From: Spirochaetaceae bacterium
GTDB lineage: Bacteria > Spirochaetota > Spirochaetia > Treponematales > Rectinemataceae
DNA: 64,000 bases
Reading direction: 5' to 3'
Assembly (NCBI GenBank): GCA_025355995.1
Contig: JANXYQ010000075.1
Location: 62,001-126,000 of the forward strand
A model generated the notes under the pieces. That model was not told the DNA's origin, searched no databases, and saw only the letters and a program-made list of their open reading frames with translations. Position 1 is the first letter of the stretch. Each line of letters starts with the position of its first letter. The position numbers were made by a program, and so were the translations under genes. Positions 40,317 to 47,961 of the stretch are shown here, piece by piece.

Positions 40317-41213
40317 CTACTTGCCCGCCCCCGCGAAGGCCAGGCCGTAGACTTCCTCGCCGAAGGCCAGCCGCTTCTTGGCCGCGACCTTCCTGAAGTG
40401 GACGAAGGCGAAGGCCCCGTTGAGCGCGAGGCTGGCACCGCTGACGAGTATCAGGGCGAAGGGCGCGTAGGGCAGGGAGATGTAGTGGCCGGGAGCGTCG
40501 ATGAAGGGCGTGACCGCCATCACGTACATCATCCACCCCGCGAGGGTATAGGCTCGAGCCTGGAGCCAGGTCCCCTTCTTGATGAGGAGGCTGGGGATCG
40601 TGCAGGCGAGGAGGACCATGGCGCCGAAGGCCGCGTGGATGGGCACGCAGTTGTAGATATAGGCGAAGTTCCAGAAATCGTAGGCGATGATCCACAGGAG
40701 CTGCATGTCCGGCCAGATCATGTCCGTGCCGCTCTTGTTCTTCTCGCTCCTCATCCCGTGCCAGCCCGAGAGGGTCACGATGGAGAGGATGCCGGCGATA
40801 GCGTTCATGAGGTGATAGATGCCGAATTGCCCGATCGGCGCTTGGCCGAGCCCGAACATGCCGATCTGGTCGCCCGTGAAGAAGAGCTGCATGTCGCGAA
40901 TCACCGCTTCCAGGATATTCACGGCGAGGATGCCCATGGCGAGGAATTTCGCCCAGTTCCGTTCGCCGAGCTTGGTATAGTTGATGGCGGTGAAGAGGAG
41001 ACAGGCGCAGAGGACGGAGTAGACCTTCGCCCAGTCGAACCAGCTATTCACGCTCGATCCGGGGGCGGTCGCGTTACGCGGAAAAAGAGTTACGCTGAGT
41101 ATGAGGGGCAGGACGAAGAAGAAGGCTAGAGTTAGCCACTTCGAGCGGCGGCAGAGCTCGTTCAACGCCACTAACGCGACGAGGACGAGAAGGGTGTGCA
41201 CGATGGAGAACAT
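40317..41213 (-). CDS. Multi-pass membrane protein, DUF5692-like
   Basis: A 298-residue protein with eight to nine hydrophobic helices. Segments such as NSWFDWAKVYSVLCACLLFT and ILAVNILEAVIRDMQ resemble the DUF5692 family, which has no known function. Conserved-looking Trp, Asn and Asp residues in helices (DFWNFAYIYN) could line a pore or bind a cofactor. AAGGAG lies before the ATG and a good promoter lies upstream. It is convergent with the preceding gene. Confidence 0.75.
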   Translation of the reverse strand: MFSIVHTLLVLVALVALNELCRRSKWLTLAFFFVLPLILSVTLFPRNATAPGSSVNSWFDWAKVYSVLCACLLFTAINYTKLGERNWAKFLAMGILAVNILEAVIRDMQLFFTGDQIGMFGLGQAPIGQFGIYHLMNAIAGILSIVTLSGWHGMRSEKNKSGTDMIWPDMQLLWIIAYDFWNFAYIYNCVPIHAAFGAMVLLACTIPSLLIKKGTWLQARAYTLAGWMMYVMAVTPFIDAPGHYISLPYAPFALILVSGASLALNGAFAFVHFRKVAAKKRLAFGEEVYGLAFAGAGK

Positions 41214-41970: not shown

Positions 41971-42591
41971 ATGGACATACGCGAGTTCTCCCTCGCCTAC
42001 GCGAGGAGTCCCTTCGGGATCGGCTCCTGCCTCGCCGCGCTTGCCGCCGGGGCTGCCGCGAGGCTGCTCGGCTCGTCCCCCCTCGGCTCCGTCCTCGCCG
42101 CGCTCGGCGCCTTCGCGGCCCTGCTCGCCCTCGCCCTCGCCTTCGGCGTCGGGCAGCGCGCCGCCGTCGCCGAGCTCGGGCGGGAGTCGGGCTCCAGGGC
42201 CGCCGCGCGCCTCGCCGAGGCGGCCTCCGCCCGCGCCCGCCTCGCGGCCCTGAGGCTCGCGCAGCCGGAGGTGGCCGCCGCTCGCGACCTCCTCGTGCTC
42301 GAGGCGGGCAGGCTCGTCGAGGACTGTCGCCGGGCGGGAACCTACGACCCCGAGGGCGTCCAGGCCGTCGTGGACTCCCTAGCCCTCGTGGACGCCTGGC
42401 TTAAGGAGGCGGACGAGAGCTCGGTCGAGCGGCGCTTCGAGCTGCCCGACGCCAATCCCTTCCCCGAAGCCGCGAAGAGGACGGCGCAAGCCCTGCGCGA
42501 GAAGGCCATCGTCGTGTCGGCGCGCCGAGCGGCCGCCGTCGGCGAGATCCCGGGAGCCGACCGCATAGCCATCGAGGAGGAGCTCAAATGA
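41971..42591 (+). CDS. Two-helix membrane protein of the Cys-repeat/radical SAM operon
   Basis: A 206-residue protein of no recognised family. Two closely spaced hydrophobic helices near residues 12-52 (GIGSCLAALAAGAAARLLGS and VLAALGAFAALLALALAFGV) are followed by a long helical cytoplasmic region, partly coiled-coil-like, with many Ala, Arg and Glu residues. Its stop overlaps the start of the Cys-repeat protein gene (ATGA), so their products should be made in step and probably form one membrane complex. It begins 29 bases after the glycosylase stop. Confidence 0.75.
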   Translation: MDIREFSLAYARSPFGIGSCLAALAAGAAARLLGSSPLGSVLAALGAFAALLALALAFGVGQRAAVAELGRESGSRAAARLAEAASARARLAALRLAQPEVAAARDLLVLEAGRLVEDCRRAGTYDPEGVQAVVDSLALVDAWLKEADESSVERRFELPDANPFPEAAKRTAQALREKAIVVSARRAAAVGEIPGADRIAIEEELK

Positions 42592-44336
42592 GATCTACGT
42601 CGCGCGAGGCGCTGGCCCTGGCCGCCCTCCTCTCCCTCCTCGTGGCCGCCTTGCCGGCCGCCGCCCTGACCGCCAAGCTCGCGTCCGACGAAACGACCGT
42701 CGTGCTCCGCGGCGACGGCAAGGCCACGGTGACCTACCGACTCGAATGGAGCGCCTCGGGCGGGAAGATGCACGGCTTCTACTTCCAGGGAGAGGCCTTC
42801 GCGCCCGTATGGGACCTGGCGCGCTGCTGGGCCGACCTCCCCGACGGCGGCCGGAGCGCCCTCTCGATCAAGGATCTCGGCGGCGGGAAGTACGACGTGG
42901 TCCTCGCGGCGGGCTTGGGCTTCTCGGGCAAGGCCTACTACAACCTGACCTACGGCGGGGACTTCGCGGCCGACGAACTCATCGGCCGCACGACCTCTGG
43001 CGAGGGCACGAAGCTCGTCTACTTCGACTGGGGGCCGGTGTGGTGGGACGACGCCCTGGACTATCGGGCGGTGCGCCTCGTCCTGCCGGTTACCGTCAAG
43101 GCCGCGAGCCTAAGCGACGACGAGAAGGCGACGGTGCCCGTCCAGACCGAGAAGCTCGTCAACGCGCAGAACAAGATCGATTGGTACGGGACCAGGGGAG
43201 AGGACGGCCGCTACTATCTCACGGGCCTCTTCTACCAGAAGGACGTCCCGAGCCAGGGAGCGCAGCGCCTCCAGCTCTATTTCCCCGAGGGCTACCTGGG
43301 CCTCTCCGCGAGCCTCGCGTCGGTCGAGGGCAAGGCCGCCACGTCCGACGAGGCCGCCGTCGCTGAGGAGAATTCGGCCGAGGCGACCGCGGCCGCCGAT
43401 GATACGGCCGATCACGCCGCGCCGACGTCCTTCGACTACCTAGAGAACAACCTGCGCGCCAAGCCCCTCCTGGATGTCGCCATCTTCCTGCCCCTGATCG
43501 CGATCGCGCTCTTCCTGTACTCGCGGAGGCTCGCCGCCTTCCGCCGCAAGAAGGCCCTCCTCGCGGGCATGGCCTGGGCGGGCGACGCCTGGTCGCCGCC
43601 CAAGATACTCGTCGGCTCCTACCAGGTGCCGGGCAAGGTTGCCGAAGGCCTCCATCCCCTCGAGGTAGCCCTCCTCATGGAGCTTCCCCTGCCTCGCGCC
43701 GCGGCCGTCATGGTCGAGGGGCTGCGCCGGCAGGGCCTCGTCGAGCTCGTCACCGAGGATCCGCTGCAGATCAAGATCCTGAGCGGCGCCAAGGCCGAGA
43801 GCGGGTACGAGGAGGACTTTCTCGGAGCCTTCGACGCCGAGGGCCGCGTCCTCTCCGGCCTCATGGCCGACTTCTTCGAGTCAGCAATAAAAAAATTACA
43901 GGAAAAAATCTGGGACTGCGACCTCGAGGCGACCAAGGCCTTCTATCGGAAAAAAATCGAGGAAGCAGAAGCGGAGCTCTCCGCTACTACGGCACTCCCC
44001 GCCGATTCGGCCGGCAAGCCGGCCGCGACGGGCGTCGTGGTCTCCCACGATCCGTATTTCAATTACTGGATGGGCTACGGCTATATGAGCCATCACTCGA
44101 CCTACTACGCGGCCATGTCGCTCCCGAAGGACCTGAACACCGGCTACACCGAGTTCATGCGCAGCGCCGCCTGCTTCTCGGGCTGCTTCAGCCCCGCCGG
44201 CGGCACCGTGGACGCCTGCTACTCGGCCTGCCACAACGCCTGCCACGACGCCTGCCATTCGGCCTGCCATTCGGCCTGCCATTCCGCCTGCCACTCGGCC
44301 TGCCACTCCGCCTGCGTGTCCGGGGGCGCCCATTGA
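42588..44336 (+). CDS. Membrane protein with C-terminal Ala-Cys-His-X repeat (candidate radical SAM substrate)
   Basis: A 582-residue protein. It has a signal peptide (to about residue 26), an extracytoplasmic beta-rich domain of about 240 residues resembling the N-terminal part of DUF2207-type proteins, an acidic linker, one membrane helix near residues 293-313 and a cytoplasmic part with a winged-helix-like segment (HPLEVALLMELPLPRAAAVM). The tail is remarkable: ACFSGCFS near 528-535, then nine tandem Ala-Cys-X-X units at residues 543-578, seven of them Ala-Cys-His-(Ser/Asn/Asp), ending SGGAH. With 11 cysteines in about 50 residues in the cytoplasm and a radical SAM gene overlapping its stop, the tail is a likely site of thioether or related modification, or of metal binding. 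AT-rich codons cluster near 43880-43980. Confidence 0.85.
   Translation: MRSTSREALALAALLSLLVAALPAAALTAKLASDETTVVLRGDGKATVTYRLEWSASGGKMHGFYFQGEAFAPVWDLARCWADLPDGGRSALSIKDLGGGKYDVVLAAGLGFSGKAYYNLTYGGDFAADELIGRTTSGEGTKLVYFDWGPVWWDDALDYRAVRLVLPVTVKAASLSDDEKATVPVQTEKLVNAQNKIDWYGTRGEDGRYYLTGLFYQKDVPSQGAQRLQLYFPEGYLGLSASLASVEGKAATSDEAAVAEENSAEATAAADDTADHAAPTSFDYLENNLRAKPLLDVAIFLPLIAIALFLYSRRLAAFRRKKALLAGMAWAGDAWSPPKILVGSYQVPGKVAEGLHPLEVALLMELPLPRAAAVMVEGLRRQGLVELVTEDPLQIKILSGAKAESGYEEDFLGAFDAEGRVLSGLMADFFESAIKKLQEKIWDCDLEATKAFYRKKIEEAEAELSATTALPADSAGKPAATGVVVSHDPYFNYWMGYGYMSHHSTYYAAMSLPKDLNTGYTEFMRSAACFSGCFSPAGGTVDACYSACHNACHDACHSACHSACHSACHSACHSACVSGGAH
44214..44321 (+). repeat. Nine-unit 12-base tandem repeat encoding Ala-Cys-X-X
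   Basis: Nine in-frame 12-base units of the form GCC TGC CAY TCS. The encoded units are ACYS, ACHN, ACHD, five ACHS and ACVS. Third-base differences between units (CAT/CAC, TCG/TCC) show that the protein repeat has been kept by selection rather than copied very recently. Confidence 0.95.
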
Positions 44337-45730
44337 AGGTTCGCCTCTCGCGCGGGCTCAAGGATCGGCTATCAACGGCCGAGTCCTTCTACCGGGGCAT
44401 TCGGCCCTGGCTCCTCGTCCGCGAGGAGGACGCCGTCCTCATCGTCCCTCCCAATCGCGTCTACAAGCTCGGCGGCTCGGCCCTGGGCGTCTTCTCCTGG
44501 CTCGACTCGGGCGGGCATCTCGCGGAGATGCCGGGCTTGGCAGGGCTGCCGCGGGCCGCCGGGATCGGGGCGGGCGAGGGGAGGGCCGCCGATGATAGGG
44601 CCGGCGAGCTCCTCTCCTTCTTCGAGGAGCTCCGCGCCGCCTATGAGGGCAGGGCGCCCGCGGGACCGACTGGCTTCGGCCGCGTCGCCTACGACTTCTC
44701 CTTCACGAAGCTGCCCATCCTCGGCGAGCTCGCCCTGACCTACCGCTGCAACGAGCGCTGCCTCTTCTGCTACGCCGCCTGCGGCGATTCCTCCTGCAGC
44801 TCGCCCTCTCTCGTAGACGCGGCCGCGGAGGCCGGCTCTGCGGAGGAGCTTTCTACCGAGCAGTGGAAGGCGATCATCCGCGTCTTCAAGGACGAGGCCA
44901 AGATACCATTCTTCTCGTTCACGGGCGGCGAGCCCCTGCTCAGGAGCGACCTCGAGGAGCTGGCGGCCTACGCGGCGAGCCTGGGCCTTCGCGTCAACCT
45001 GATCACGAACGGCAGTCTCGCGACTCCCGCGAGGGCGGCCTCGCTGAAGGCCGCGGGAATAGACACGGCTCAGGTGAGCCTGGAGAGCCCGGAGAGGGCG
45101 ATCCACGACGCGTTGTGCGGCGTCGAGGGCGCCTGGGAGCGCACGGTCGCCGGCATCGGGGCGCTCCGGGAGGCCGGGGTCGCGGTGCAGACCAACAGCA
45201 CCCTCACGACCCTCAATCGGGAGAGCCTCCTCGCCCTGCCCGCCTTCCTCGCGGGCCTCGGCGTGGATCGCTTCTCGATGAACCTCTTCATCCCCGCGGG
45301 GCGCGGCCTCGAGGCGGACTCCCTCTTCGTGAGCTACGCCGAGGCCGGTCCCCTCGTCGATGCGGTGCGGCGCGCCGCGCACCTGGCCGGCAGGACCTTC
45401 TTCTGGTACAGCCCGACCCCCTATTGCCTCTACAACCCCGTCGCCAGGGGCCTCGGCAACAAGAGCTGCGCGGCGGCGGATGGCCTCGTGCACGTCAATC
45501 CCCGCGGCGAGATCCTGCCCTGCTCCTCCTGGCCCGAGAGCCTGGGCTCGCTGACCTCGGGCATATTCAAGGACATCTGGTTCTCGCGGCGGGCCGAGTT
45601 CTTCAAGAAGAAGCGGTTCGCGCCGGAGCGTTGCTCGGCCTGCGATACCTTCGTCGCCTGTCAGGGCGCCTGCCCCCTCTACTGGGCCTACGCGGGCGAG
45701 TCCGAATTGGCAGAAAAGGGGAGTGCTTGA
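44333..45730 (+). CDS. Radical SAM/SPASM protein with PqqD-like N-terminal domain
   Basis: Probable peptide or protein maturase of 465 residues. Residues about 20-70 (VREEDAVLIVPPNRVYKLGG) resemble a PqqD-like RiPP recognition element that would bind its substrate. The radical SAM domain has CNERCLFC (Cys139, Cys143, Cys146) for the SAM-binding cluster and the FTGGEPLLR motif. A SPASM-type C-terminal domain carries Cys379, Cys397 and the set Cys434, 437, 443 and 447 for auxiliary iron-sulfur clusters. The start is a TTG that overlaps the stop of the Cys-repeat protein gene, and its own stop overlaps the next gene. SPASM enzymes with a recognition domain form thioether or carbon-carbon links in neighbouring peptides, so the Cys-repeat tail is the obvious target. 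Confidence 0.92.
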   Translation: MKVRLSRGLKDRLSTAESFYRGIRPWLLVREEDAVLIVPPNRVYKLGGSALGVFSWLDSGGHLAEMPGLAGLPRAAGIGAGEGRAADDRAGELLSFFEELRAAYEGRAPAGPTGFGRVAYDFSFTKLPILGELALTYRCNERCLFCYAACGDSSCSSPSLVDAAAEAGSAEELSTEQWKAIIRVFKDEAKIPFFSFTGGEPLLRSDLEELAAYAASLGLRVNLITNGSLATPARAASLKAAGIDTAQVSLESPERAIHDALCGVEGAWERTVAGIGALREAGVAVQTNSTLTTLNRESLLALPAFLAGLGVDRFSMNLFIPAGRGLEADSLFVSYAEAGPLVDAVRRAAHLAGRTFFWYSPTPYCLYNPVARGLGNKSCAAADGLVHVNPRGEILPCSSWPESLGSLTSGIFKDIWFSRRAEFFKKKRFAPERCSACDTFVACQGACPLYWAYAGESELAEKGSA

Positions 45731-46629
45731 TGCAGGACGACTTCAGGTTCTTCAAATTGGGCTTCGCCTCCAGGCTCATCCTCGCGGGCGGCCTCTTCGC
45801 CGCCGGCATCGCTCTCGAGCTCGCGCTCCGAGCGAGCATGTTCTTCCCCGGCCTCGCGGTCCTCGCCGCCGGATGGCTGCCCCTCATGCTCAGGAAGGCC
45901 ACGAACAAGCCCGAGGACCAGGGCCTCGAGGAATGGCGGCCCGTGCCCCTGTCCGAGGTGGACAAGCTCGACGACGCCCTGCGCGAGTCCAAGAAGCTGC
46001 GGTCCAAGACGAGGAGCCTGTCCTCGGGAGTCGCCCTCGGCCTGGGCATCCCCGTCCTCGTCGTGTTCCTCGGCCTCTGCGCGGCCTTCGACCGCACCGA
46101 TGCCTATTTCGTCGGCGTGAACGCCGCCGCCCTCCTGGTTCCCGCGCTCTTCTTCGGCCGGGTCAGGGTCTTCACCCCCGCCGATATCGCGATGAAGATG
46201 CCCTGCTTCCGCGCCCTCCTGGCCGAGATGCCGGCCGAGGGCGTCACCGTCGCGCCCTACCTCCGCTTCGACAAGGACCGCTCGGGCGCGGACGTGCCCG
46301 AGGACCTTCGGCTCCTGTACGAGCTCAAGCGCCCTCCGGCCGACCTCGTCGGCATACAGGTGCAGGCCGCCGTCAACAACGGCCCGAACGGCGCGGTGCC
46401 CTACATGTACGCGGTCATCCTCACCAAGGGAAAGGACGGCCCCTCGTACAAGGTCGCGCAGCGCATCAAATCGGCGGGCTACGAGATCGAGGTCGGCGGG
46501 GACGAGCAGTACGGGACCGTCGTGCTGCGCCAGGCCACGGACGACGGCGGCTACGAGACGAGCCCCGACGACTGCAGGAAGCTCCTGCGGCTCTGCCTCA
46601 AGGCCCTGGCGGCGCTGGCCGCGGCCTAG
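45730..46629 (+). CDS. Membrane protein of the Cys-repeat/radical SAM operon
   Basis: A 299-residue protein of no recognised family. Four hydrophobic helices lie in the first half as two pairs (SRLILAGGLFAAGIALELAL, FFPGLAVLAAGWLPLML, then VALGLGIPVLVVFLGLCAAF and VGVNAAALLVPALFFG), separated by a charged cytoplasmic loop. The C-terminal soluble domain of about 150 residues is a mixed alpha/beta fold (VGIQVQAAVNNGPNGAVPYM). Its ATG overlaps the radical SAM stop by one base (TGATG). It ends the four-gene unit and converges on the isomerase gene. Confidence 0.78.
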   Translation: MQDDFRFFKLGFASRLILAGGLFAAGIALELALRASMFFPGLAVLAAGWLPLMLRKATNKPEDQGLEEWRPVPLSEVDKLDDALRESKKLRSKTRSLSSGVALGLGIPVLVVFLGLCAAFDRTDAYFVGVNAAALLVPALFFGRVRVFTPADIAMKMPCFRALLAEMPAEGVTVAPYLRFDKDRSGADVPEDLRLLYELKRPPADLVGIQVQAAVNNGPNGAVPYMYAVILTKGKDGPSYKVAQRIKSAGYEIEVGGDEQYGTVVLRQATDDGGYETSPDDCRKLLRLCLKALAALAAA

Positions 46630-46638
46630 GGTCGGTTG

Positions 46639-47961
46639 TTATTCTATTACCTTCCAGCCCGTGATGCGCGCCAGGGCCCGGAAGGGGCGCATGAAATCCC
46701 CGTAGACCACCGAAGCGTGGTGGGCGATCCCGTTGTCGACGACCTTGGCCAGCACTTCCTTCACGCTGTCCTCGAAGGTGGCCTTCATGTAGGTGCCGCG
46801 CAGCTCCTTGTCCATGGGCACCGCCTCGGCCTTCTGGATGAAGAGGCGGTACTCGGTACCCGCCGAATCGAGGCGGAATATGGAGAGCTCGCCGCTCTTC
46901 AGCACGAAATCGGCGGTCACGCCCTTGCCCCCGGCGAAGTAGGTGTCGAGGGATCGCACGCACCTGCCGTCCCATAGATTGCAGGGGGCCACTCCGCAGT
47001 GCCAGAAGAGGGCGTAGTTTTGCTCGAAATTCACCTGGGAGAAATCGAATAGGAAGGGCGTCTCGGCCCCTATCGCGCGATGGCCGAGCATGGAGAGGGC
47101 TCCCTCCAGGTCCCCCTCGCAGGCCAGGATGCGGTCCTCGGACTGGAGCAGGGACATGGCCGCGCAGGGCGATATGCCGTAGCCGGCGGCGAACTCGGGC
47201 CAGCAGCGGATGGCCAGGGCGTCGATGCCCTTCGCGTCCAGGAAGGAGGCGAGCTTGGCGCTGAGCTCGGCGACCTTGTCGAGCTGGACCTCCGTGATCC
47301 CCGAGGCGTCGAAAACCTCGAGGAGGCGCTTTCTCCGCGCCTCGACCGCGGATGCCTCGACCGCCTGGCCCCAAACGTCCTCGAGCGCGTAGTGGTCGAT
47401 GAGGATGCCCAACTCCTTGTAGACGTTGGGGTCGTAGACGCCGAGGTTGAAGAAGCCGTGGGCCCTGTACCCGAGGATGGCGACGCGAGCCGTCCGGAAG
47501 CGCGCGAGGATGCGGATCGCGTCGACCCAATCCTCGTCTATCCTCGAACCGATCGTGACCGTGTAGTTGCGGATCCCGGATTTGTAGAGGTTCGAGGCGT
47601 TCAGGTTGACTCCGCAGACCGAGTTGAGCCGGATCTTGCCCCCGTCGTAGGGGAGCTCGTCGAGGCCCCACAGCAGGACCGGCTTGGCCAGCACCTTCTC
47701 GATCTCGAGAACGAGATGGCCTAGGTGAAAGGTGCCGCTTATGCAGACGAGGCCGTCCACGTTTCTCGCGTTCAGGAACAGGGCGGCGCTCCGCGCCTCC
47801 TCCGGCTCGATCACGAGCCCCTCCACGACAGCCCACTCCACGTCGGAGAGACTCGAGAGCTCCTTCTTGAGTCCGGCGAAAATCTCCTCCGCGGCCTTCC
47901 AGTCGAAGGTTTTTCTCGCGAGGCAGACCAGTCCGAGGGTAATTCGATGTTTCTTCGCCAT
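46639..47961 (-). CDS. L-fucose/L-arabinose isomerase-like protein, probable sulfoquinovose isomerase
   Basis: Ketol isomerase of 440 residues in the L-fucose-isomerase-like superfamily (COG2407). The N-terminal Rossmann-like half carries GLDELPYDGGKIRLNSVCGV. The metal-binding region includes RCWPEF and later acidic and His residues (FWHCGVAPCNLWD). In several sulfoglycolytic clusters a relative converts sulfoquinovose to 6-deoxy-6-sulfofructose, the substrate of the transketolase encoded next door; that role is inferred from context. The ATG has AAGGAG upstream, and a promoter with two operator-like sites precedes it. It is transcribed apart from the main sqw genes. Confidence 0.85.
   Translation of the reverse strand: MAKKHRITLGLVCLARKTFDWKAAEEIFAGLKKELSSLSDVEWAVVEGLVIEPEEARSAALFLNARNVDGLVCISGTFHLGHLVLEIEKVLAKPVLLWGLDELPYDGGKIRLNSVCGVNLNASNLYKSGIRNYTVTIGSRIDEDWVDAIRILARFRTARVAILGYRAHGFFNLGVYDPNVYKELGILIDHYALEDVWGQAVEASAVEARRKRLLEVFDASGITEVQLDKVAELSAKLASFLDAKGIDALAIRCWPEFAAGYGISPCAAMSLLQSEDRILACEGDLEGALSMLGHRAIGAETPFLFDFSQVNFEQNYALFWHCGVAPCNLWDGRCVRSLDTYFAGGKGVTADFVLKSGELSIFRLDSAGTEYRLFIQKAEAVPMDKELRGTYMKATFEDSVKEVLAKVVDNGIAHHASVVYGDFMRPFRALARITGWKVIE

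Follow-up and report, generated by a model that had tools for sequence, protein, structure and literature searches.

A 64-kb stretch of DNA from a Spirochaetaceae bacterium (contig JANXYQ010000075.1, positions 62,001 to 126,000; the whole stretch is called the window) contains four genes, all on the + strand, that overlap successively by 4, 4, and 1 bp (ATGA, TTGA, and TGATG), just as a preliminary description of the sequence had it. Two of the four concern us here, one encoding a membrane protein that ends in a tandem repeat of Cys and His (the tail protein) and the other a radical S-adenosylmethionine (SAM)/SPASM enzyme. Comparison of sequences suggests that the two probably form a dedicated system in which the enzyme modifies the tail of the membrane protein. 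The features, in window coordinates and with lengths in amino acids (aa), are as follows.

41971..42591, + strand: gene 1 (206 aa), a clade-limited accessory gene; two predicted N-terminal hydrophobic helices
42588..44336, + strand: tail protein (582 aa), DUF2207-like; signal helix, ectodomain, one long transmembrane (TM) helix, predicted cytoplasmic domain, and Cys/His repeat tail
42660..43295, + strand: ectodomain of the tail protein (residues 25-236); beta fold like that of ribophorin I and the M1-aminopeptidase N-terminal domain
44169..44192, + strand: ACFSGCFS pre-repeat (residues 528-535), holding one aromatic-x-x-Cys unit (F530-C533)
44214..44321, + strand: repeat tail (residues 543-578); nine ACXX, equivalent to one YxAC (Y545-C548) plus seven HxAC (C552...C576)
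44333..45730, + strand: radical SAM/SPASM enzyme (465 aa); its TTG start overlaps the stop of the tail gene
44747..44770, + strand: CX3CX2C of the SAM-binding cluster (C139, C143, C146), invariant in 65 orthologues
45425..45673, + strand: seven more invariant Cys (365, 379, 397, 434, 437, 443, 447); SPASM CX12GX4C ... CX2CX5CX3C plus C365
45730..46629, + strand: gene 4 (299 aa), conserved as the third gene where the system is of type I; membrane helices and a C-terminal alpha/beta domain

The repeat tail and its unit

The tail in the window reads ACFSGCFS, PAGGTVD, ACYS, ACHN, ACHD, ACHS (five times), ACVS, and finally GGAH, which agrees to the residue with the count first given (nine ACXX units, seven of them ACHX, plus ACFSGCFS). 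At the DNA level, the window has five occurrences of the pattern for CHxACHxACHxAC, against none in 100 shuffles. The codons of the array are mixed (CAC/CAT, TCG/TCC). Among the matches listed across genomes, both His codons are used in 92 of 96 arrays and both Cys codons in 87 of 96, and ACHS units, though identical in residues, differ on average in 20% of their bases. The mixture of synonymous codons and the divergence of units encoding the same residues argue for selection at the level of the protein, not recent duplication of DNA. The tail is also the most conserved part of the protein: the mean frequency of the most common residue is 0.85 in the tail, 0.45 in the ectodomain, and 0.26 in the linkers, and the Cys and His of the core repeat are invariant in 52 aligned proteins.

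The arrays consist of blocks of Cys at four-residue spacing, with Ala before Cys in 883 of 977 cases. The preliminary description took the unit to be A-C-H-x, but the edges of the blocks require a different division. The residue following Cys is His in only 3 of 180 cases where the Cys ends a block, as against 741 of 778 for other Cys. Counting over related sequences, which are not independent events, Cys stands at +3 from 797 of the 802 His and at -1 from 742 of them; at register breaks, where successive blocks are set apart by a distance other than four, the +3 relationship is kept 56 times and the -1 relationship once. Such breaks are seen in tails of different types (type I spacers, type II, and Asgard). 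The rule also holds in 23 tails found independently of the pattern, by searching with the protein or the enzyme (a few of them belong to the first set as well), where 205 of 205 His have Cys at +3 and 34 of 34 register breaks preserve it. The position three before a non-first Cys (n=876) is occupied by His 795 times, by Tyr 16 times, and by Phe 16 times, and the window itself has two such aromatic-Cys pairs (F530-C533 and Y545-C548) along with seven His-Cys pairs. Since +3 is kept through register breaks and aromatic residues appear at -3, the unit is best written aromatic-x-(Ala/Gly)-Cys; judged from the sequences, then, the repeat is H-x-A-C, not A-C-H-x. The idea that Cys and His line up on one face of a helix was dropped after a test of residue phase, as a four-residue period turns 320 degrees over nine units.

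The tail protein has a TM helix followed by a basic stretch, which by the positive-inside rule should place the C-terminal side in the cytoplasm. Its AlphaFold model (predicted local distance difference test, pLDDT, 81) is good except in the linkers and the tail, and the ectodomain aligns with 8agb_E over 182 residues (VIA-align Z 16.2, root-mean-square deviation 2.8). Across the family the protein is about 490 to 930 aa long and so is not the short precursor typical of a ranthipeptide or sactipeptide. Perhaps, though, the tail is the core of a ribosomally synthesized and post-translationally modified peptide (RiPP) borne on a large leader, to be modified, cleaved, and then released or exported. 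The repeat does lie at the extreme C-terminus, and the enzyme is of a RiPP type with a recognition domain. The remainder, however, does not look like a leader to be discarded, being a membrane protein that is itself conserved, and apart from gene 4, gene 1, and genes for coiled-coil and small membrane proteins, the 8-kb loci showed no recurrent neighbour that would obviously be a protease or exporter of the tail, making this account very improbable.

The enzyme and its association with the tail

The enzyme matches PF04055 (E 6.7e-26) and PF13186 (E 1.2e-6), and its CX3CX2C reads CNERCLFC. Orthologues from different phyla are 35-60% identical. In 65 of them, ten Cys (those of CX3CX2C and of SPASM) are invariant, and the radical SAM and SPASM Pfam domains are found in 65 and 64, respectively, as befits a radical SAM/SPASM enzyme with the auxiliary-cluster cysteines initially reported. 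The PqqD-like N-terminus reported with them belongs to the family: PF05402 is matched by 19 of the 65 (two, examined singly, match at residues 25-83 with 32.9 and 37.6 bits, gathering 23.4), whereas in the enzyme of the window, taken alone, the match to PF05402 is below detection. The nearest NCBIfam equivalog scores far under its cut-off (at best 139 bits vs 500). The highest scores to named families are those to AhbD, NirJ2, and PqqE types, and all 65 enzymes match TIGR03977 (HxsC; cut-off 267.9 bits) by E-value (<=1e-10, best 9.7e-33). No NCBIfam or Pfam family is devoted to either the tail protein or the enzyme.

A pattern scan of GTDB genomes returned at least 116 stretches, at least 96 of which are genuine tail proteins after removal of an unrelated Pseudomonas match and of chance frames (about ten, e.g., L091, L093, L095, and L134). 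The proteins come from at least about 30 named phyla, including Spirochaetota, Chloroflexota, Myxococcota, Bacillota, Planctomycetota, Acidobacteriota, and Elusimicrobiota, and, in archaea, the Asgard groups Thorarchaeota, Lokiarchaeota, and Heimdallarchaeota, as well as Thermoproteota. Nearly all the sources are metagenome-assembled genomes (MAGs), and an isolated odd placement may therefore reflect a binning error, but the overall breadth does not. One cultured strain, Desulfobulbus alkaliphilus DSM 24258 (L098), also carries the pair. Among viral contigs, searching by protein turned up no relative, and 12 pattern matches were short low-complexity frames.

A search across genomes for repeat proteins beside radical SAM/SPASM genes had been proposed at the outset. 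Among the matches listed, the orthologous enzyme follows the tail gene immediately and in the same orientation in 84 of 96 cases, and in four it is nearby but placed differently (three Asgard loci have it divergent, and a Thermoproteota locus has it upstream). The other eight are a second copy in a genome that bears the pair, or lie at contig ends, at an assembly gap, or in shortened Asgard loci; the enzyme is present in all seven of their genomes that were searched (that is, all but L146, a contig-end case). Two tail-protein copies occur in one Myxococcales MAG, one with the enzyme and gene 4 (L067 and L073 are the two loci), the other with only gene 4 directly downstream, and a single enzyme may serve both.

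By protein search, the tail protein is present in 12 of 296 genomes of the Spirochaete phylum (two further matches are low-complexity frames), and the genomes bearing the enzyme are the same 12. Genomes in Thermodesulfobacteriota, Chloroflexota, and Asgard archaea with an enzyme of the family proper all carry the tail, insofar as they were followed up (Asgard G778 and G712 stand outside this count). When 79 enzymes are placed on a tree, only 3 changes, the fewest possible, account for the four tail architectures, compared with 43 for phylum, and the Spirochaete enzymes are scattered, each place with its own tail type. The fit of the enzyme tree to tail types indicates that the pair moves as a unit and that enzyme and tail type change together. 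That the enzyme and tail belong together as a dedicated pair and are inherited jointly is strongly supported.

Scores against the enzyme profile fall into two groups: full-length family members exceed 540 bits, and a sister clade that keeps the same ten invariant Cys scores 273-360 bits. The sister loci lie in Thermodesulfobacteriota, Chloroflexota, and Asgard archaea, and in 28 of 31 with flanking sequence, the gene directly upstream of the enzyme codes for a membrane protein whose C-terminus is GGGCACACACAGCACACAGGGR or closely similar to it. Neither the sister enzyme nor the sister tail protein reaches the cut-off of any named NCBIfam family. The feature that the two kinds of tail have in common is Ala adjoining Cys. 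Homologous enzymes consistently lacking a Cys-repeat neighbour, the result that the preliminary description said would tell against it, were therefore not encountered in the Spirochaetes, in the genomes of the family proper that were checked, or in the sister clade. Alternating Cys-Ala tails (CACACACAGCACACAGGGR) are found at sister loci L203-L206, L212-L222, L236-L245, L247, and L249-L250. An independent CHxA-repeat system was observed in Pseudomonas mucoides P154a (L110:860-1225), where a 122-aa candidate precursor ending in GYCHSACHGACHGACHGARGWR adjoins several SPASM/radical SAM genes that have no relation to the present family (<=58 bits).

Of 74 type I loci, 61 have a relative of gene 4, which nearly always lies directly downstream of the enzyme, and many of the type I loci without it end at contig or locus borders; no relative was found in any type II, III, or Asgard locus examined. 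Its product is modelled well (pLDDT 90) but gives no family match and no convincing fold match (best Foldseek E 0.09), though it shares a common arrangement with Spa15 (VIA-align Z 7.2 over 100 residues). Might the enzyme adjoin the tail gene for some other reason and act on gene 4 or on a small molecule? Some of the AhbD, NirJ2, and PqqE types to which it scores best do act on small molecules. This is very improbable, however, as type II, III, and Asgard loci without gene 4 still keep enzyme and tail, and enzyme type tracks tail type.

The four-gene picture of the preliminary description was correct locally but too narrow, for the system spans bacteria and archaea and usually (in type I) has a third gene. 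Gene 1 has relatives at only 10 loci, close to the clade of the window, and matches nothing in Pfam or NCBIfam; LemA was considered as its partner, but no family supports it. In place of gene 4, type II and III loci often carry a gene for a coiled-coil protein (about 400 aa) and, in many cases behind it, one for a small membrane protein (about 180 aa), as seen downstream of the enzyme at L066, L074, L077, L113, L121, L131, L135, and L179. Upstream of the tail gene in some Asgard archaea and WOR-3 bacteria (L064, L116, L119, L124, and L169) is a small protein of about 120-140 aa (LPYGxI...LxMxFS). The locus in the window is flanked on the - strand by a DUF5692 membrane protein (40317-41213, E 1.1e-85) and by a protein distantly related to sulfoquinovose isomerase SftI (46639-47961, 196 bits vs a cut-off of 700), whose C-terminal domain is that of a fucose isomerase.

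A probable modification of the tail

That the enzyme modifies the tail in some fashion is very likely, given the pairing just described. In the scheme that best explains the findings, and that is on the whole more likely than not, the tail protein would be anchored in the membrane, its C-terminal domain and Cys/His tail facing the cytoplasm, where the enzyme would bind it by means of the PqqD-like recognition domain and modify the tail unit by unit, each unit being [aromatic]-x-Ala-Cys, nearly always H-x-A-C. In the likeliest chemistry, the 5'-deoxyadenosyl radical would take a hydrogen from the residue three before Cys (His, rarely Phe or Tyr), whose benzylic-type C-beta hydrogen would be a reasonable target for abstraction, and the Cys thiolate, held by a SPASM cluster, would be joined to that residue as a thioether. 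The product would be a ladder of seven to nine small rings, and the finished tail would give the membrane protein a metal or redox array. The parts of the scheme differ in strength. The modification is quite possibly of the thioether type, its acceptor is possibly the residue at Cys minus 3, and a metal or redox role for the finished tail is tentative. The end use, whether as a metal or redox array or as a membrane sensor, is speculation.

Perhaps the enzyme instead alters residues of the tail singly, with no cross-link, converting Cys to formylglycine or a dehydro residue, epimerising Ala, or altering His. SPASM enzymes such as anSME act on a single Cys (PMC8326336), and the near invariance of Ala before Cys, extending to Ala beside Cys in the CACACA tails of the sister system, would suit this. 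The coupling of Cys to His at -3 across register breaks would be unexpected, however, if Cys or Ala were modified alone, and the possibility is unlikely.

Several considerations weigh against modification of the tail as proposed. Co-inheritance alone is no proof of a relation between enzyme and substrate, for neighbouring genes travel together, and the joint change of enzyme and tail type, though expected of an enzyme and its substrate, is expected also of genes that simply do so. The genome scan required three CHxA units, so that invariance inside those units is partly by construction (runs of 7-10 units and the sets found without the pattern escape this bias). The sister (CA)n tails have no aromatic residue at -3, and if the chemistry is shared, the acceptor cannot be required to be aromatic. 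Finally, the HxAC rule suits a bare metal site with HxxC ligands equally well: the tail may bind metal or Fe-S unmodified at His-x-x-Cys sites, with the enzyme acting elsewhere. The invariance of Cys and His is what one would expect of ligands, and AlphaFold models the tail with low confidence, giving it no definite fold. An unmodified metal site would not explain why no tail-bearing genome among those checked is without the enzyme, why the clade of the enzyme predicts the architecture of the tail, or why the sister family has a different Cys repeat, and we consider it decidedly unlikely.

Modification of the tail by the enzyme, if it occurs, would be the work of one enzyme family on a nearly invariant tail across Asgard archaea, Chloroflexota, Clostridia, and Spirochaetes. 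Such breadth suggests a basic cell function, probably in anaerobes, and not a niche natural product. The H-x-A-C rule predicts precisely which residues would be joined, and the sister system, with its different Cys repeat, provides a built-in comparison. The boldest form of the proposal, a pan-prokaryotic ladder of Cys-to-His (i to i-3) links on the cytoplasmic tail of a membrane protein, making a new covalent array like a cofactor, with a sister version on alternating Cys-Ala tails, in bacteria and Asgard archaea, is rather unlikely.

Comparison with known systems

The tail protein resembles DUF2207 and TIGR04222 proteins in having an extracellular N-terminal domain, a TM helix, and a cytoplasmic C-terminus with a low-complexity tail. 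PF09972 (DUF2207) is matched by 16 of 52 family members (best E 4e-7; one scores 22.2 bits against a gathering threshold of 24.4), though not by the member in the window, and TIGR04222 by 10 of 52. The usual tail of DUF2207 proteins, however, is rich in Gly and Ser (PMC10457818), whereas that of the present family consists of Cys/His repeats and comes with a dedicated enzyme.

A radical SAM enzyme with a Cys-repeat target is a known kind of system (ACGX, CXXX, SCIFF), though the radical SAM peptide maturases known so far have mostly short-peptide substrates. The ACGX enzyme (TIGR04340, rSAM_ACGX) is likewise a radical SAM/SPASM enzyme, and it takes its name from a target in which Ala-Cys recurs every four residues, but the enzyme of the window scores only 63.5 bits against its cut-off of 400, and the present repeat, HxAC, belongs to a large membrane protein. 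TIGR04117 targets also have Cys at every fourth residue and a radical SAM partner, but the family is a 98-position profile with no membrane domain, and 3 of 52 tail proteins match it weakly (best E 3e-4); in one of these, only the repeat region matches, at 13.6 bits vs a cut-off of 50. Nothing above the cut-off of TIGR04117 was found in the genome of the window (where controls gave no match either) or in 148 genomes of the Desulfobulbus phylum, so the comparison with the known CXXX system is indirect. In His-Xaa-Ser (Hxs) systems, a His-containing repeat tail is accompanied by radical SAM partners, but these are paired (HxsB/HxsC), while here there is a single enzyme and the invariant is H-x-A-C.

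Ranthipeptides (SCIFF/CteA, freyrasin/PapA, and NxxcA) share with the present system the combination of a RiPP recognition element with a SPASM enzyme, and NxxcA in particular joins Cys to the residue at -3 (Cys23-Asn20, S-Cbeta, an i-3 geometry; PMC8326336). They are short peptides, however, the enzyme of the window scores 49.9 bits against a PapB cut-off of 340, and the acceptor here would be His. QhpD provides a precedent for a SPASM enzyme whose thioethers are formed within a protein and not within a free peptide (PMC8326336), but its links join Cys to Asp/Glu on the subunit of an enzyme, quinohemoprotein amine dehydrogenase, that has no tandem repeat tail. A description of the repeat tail, its pairing with the enzyme, or the sister tail was not found in the open-licence literature, and the judgment of the preliminary description that the repeat system is undescribed stands within that literature, NCBIfam, and Pfam. 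What is new, so far as open-licence papers could be searched, is the class of substrate, the HxAC rule, the range over two domains of life, and the sister tail.

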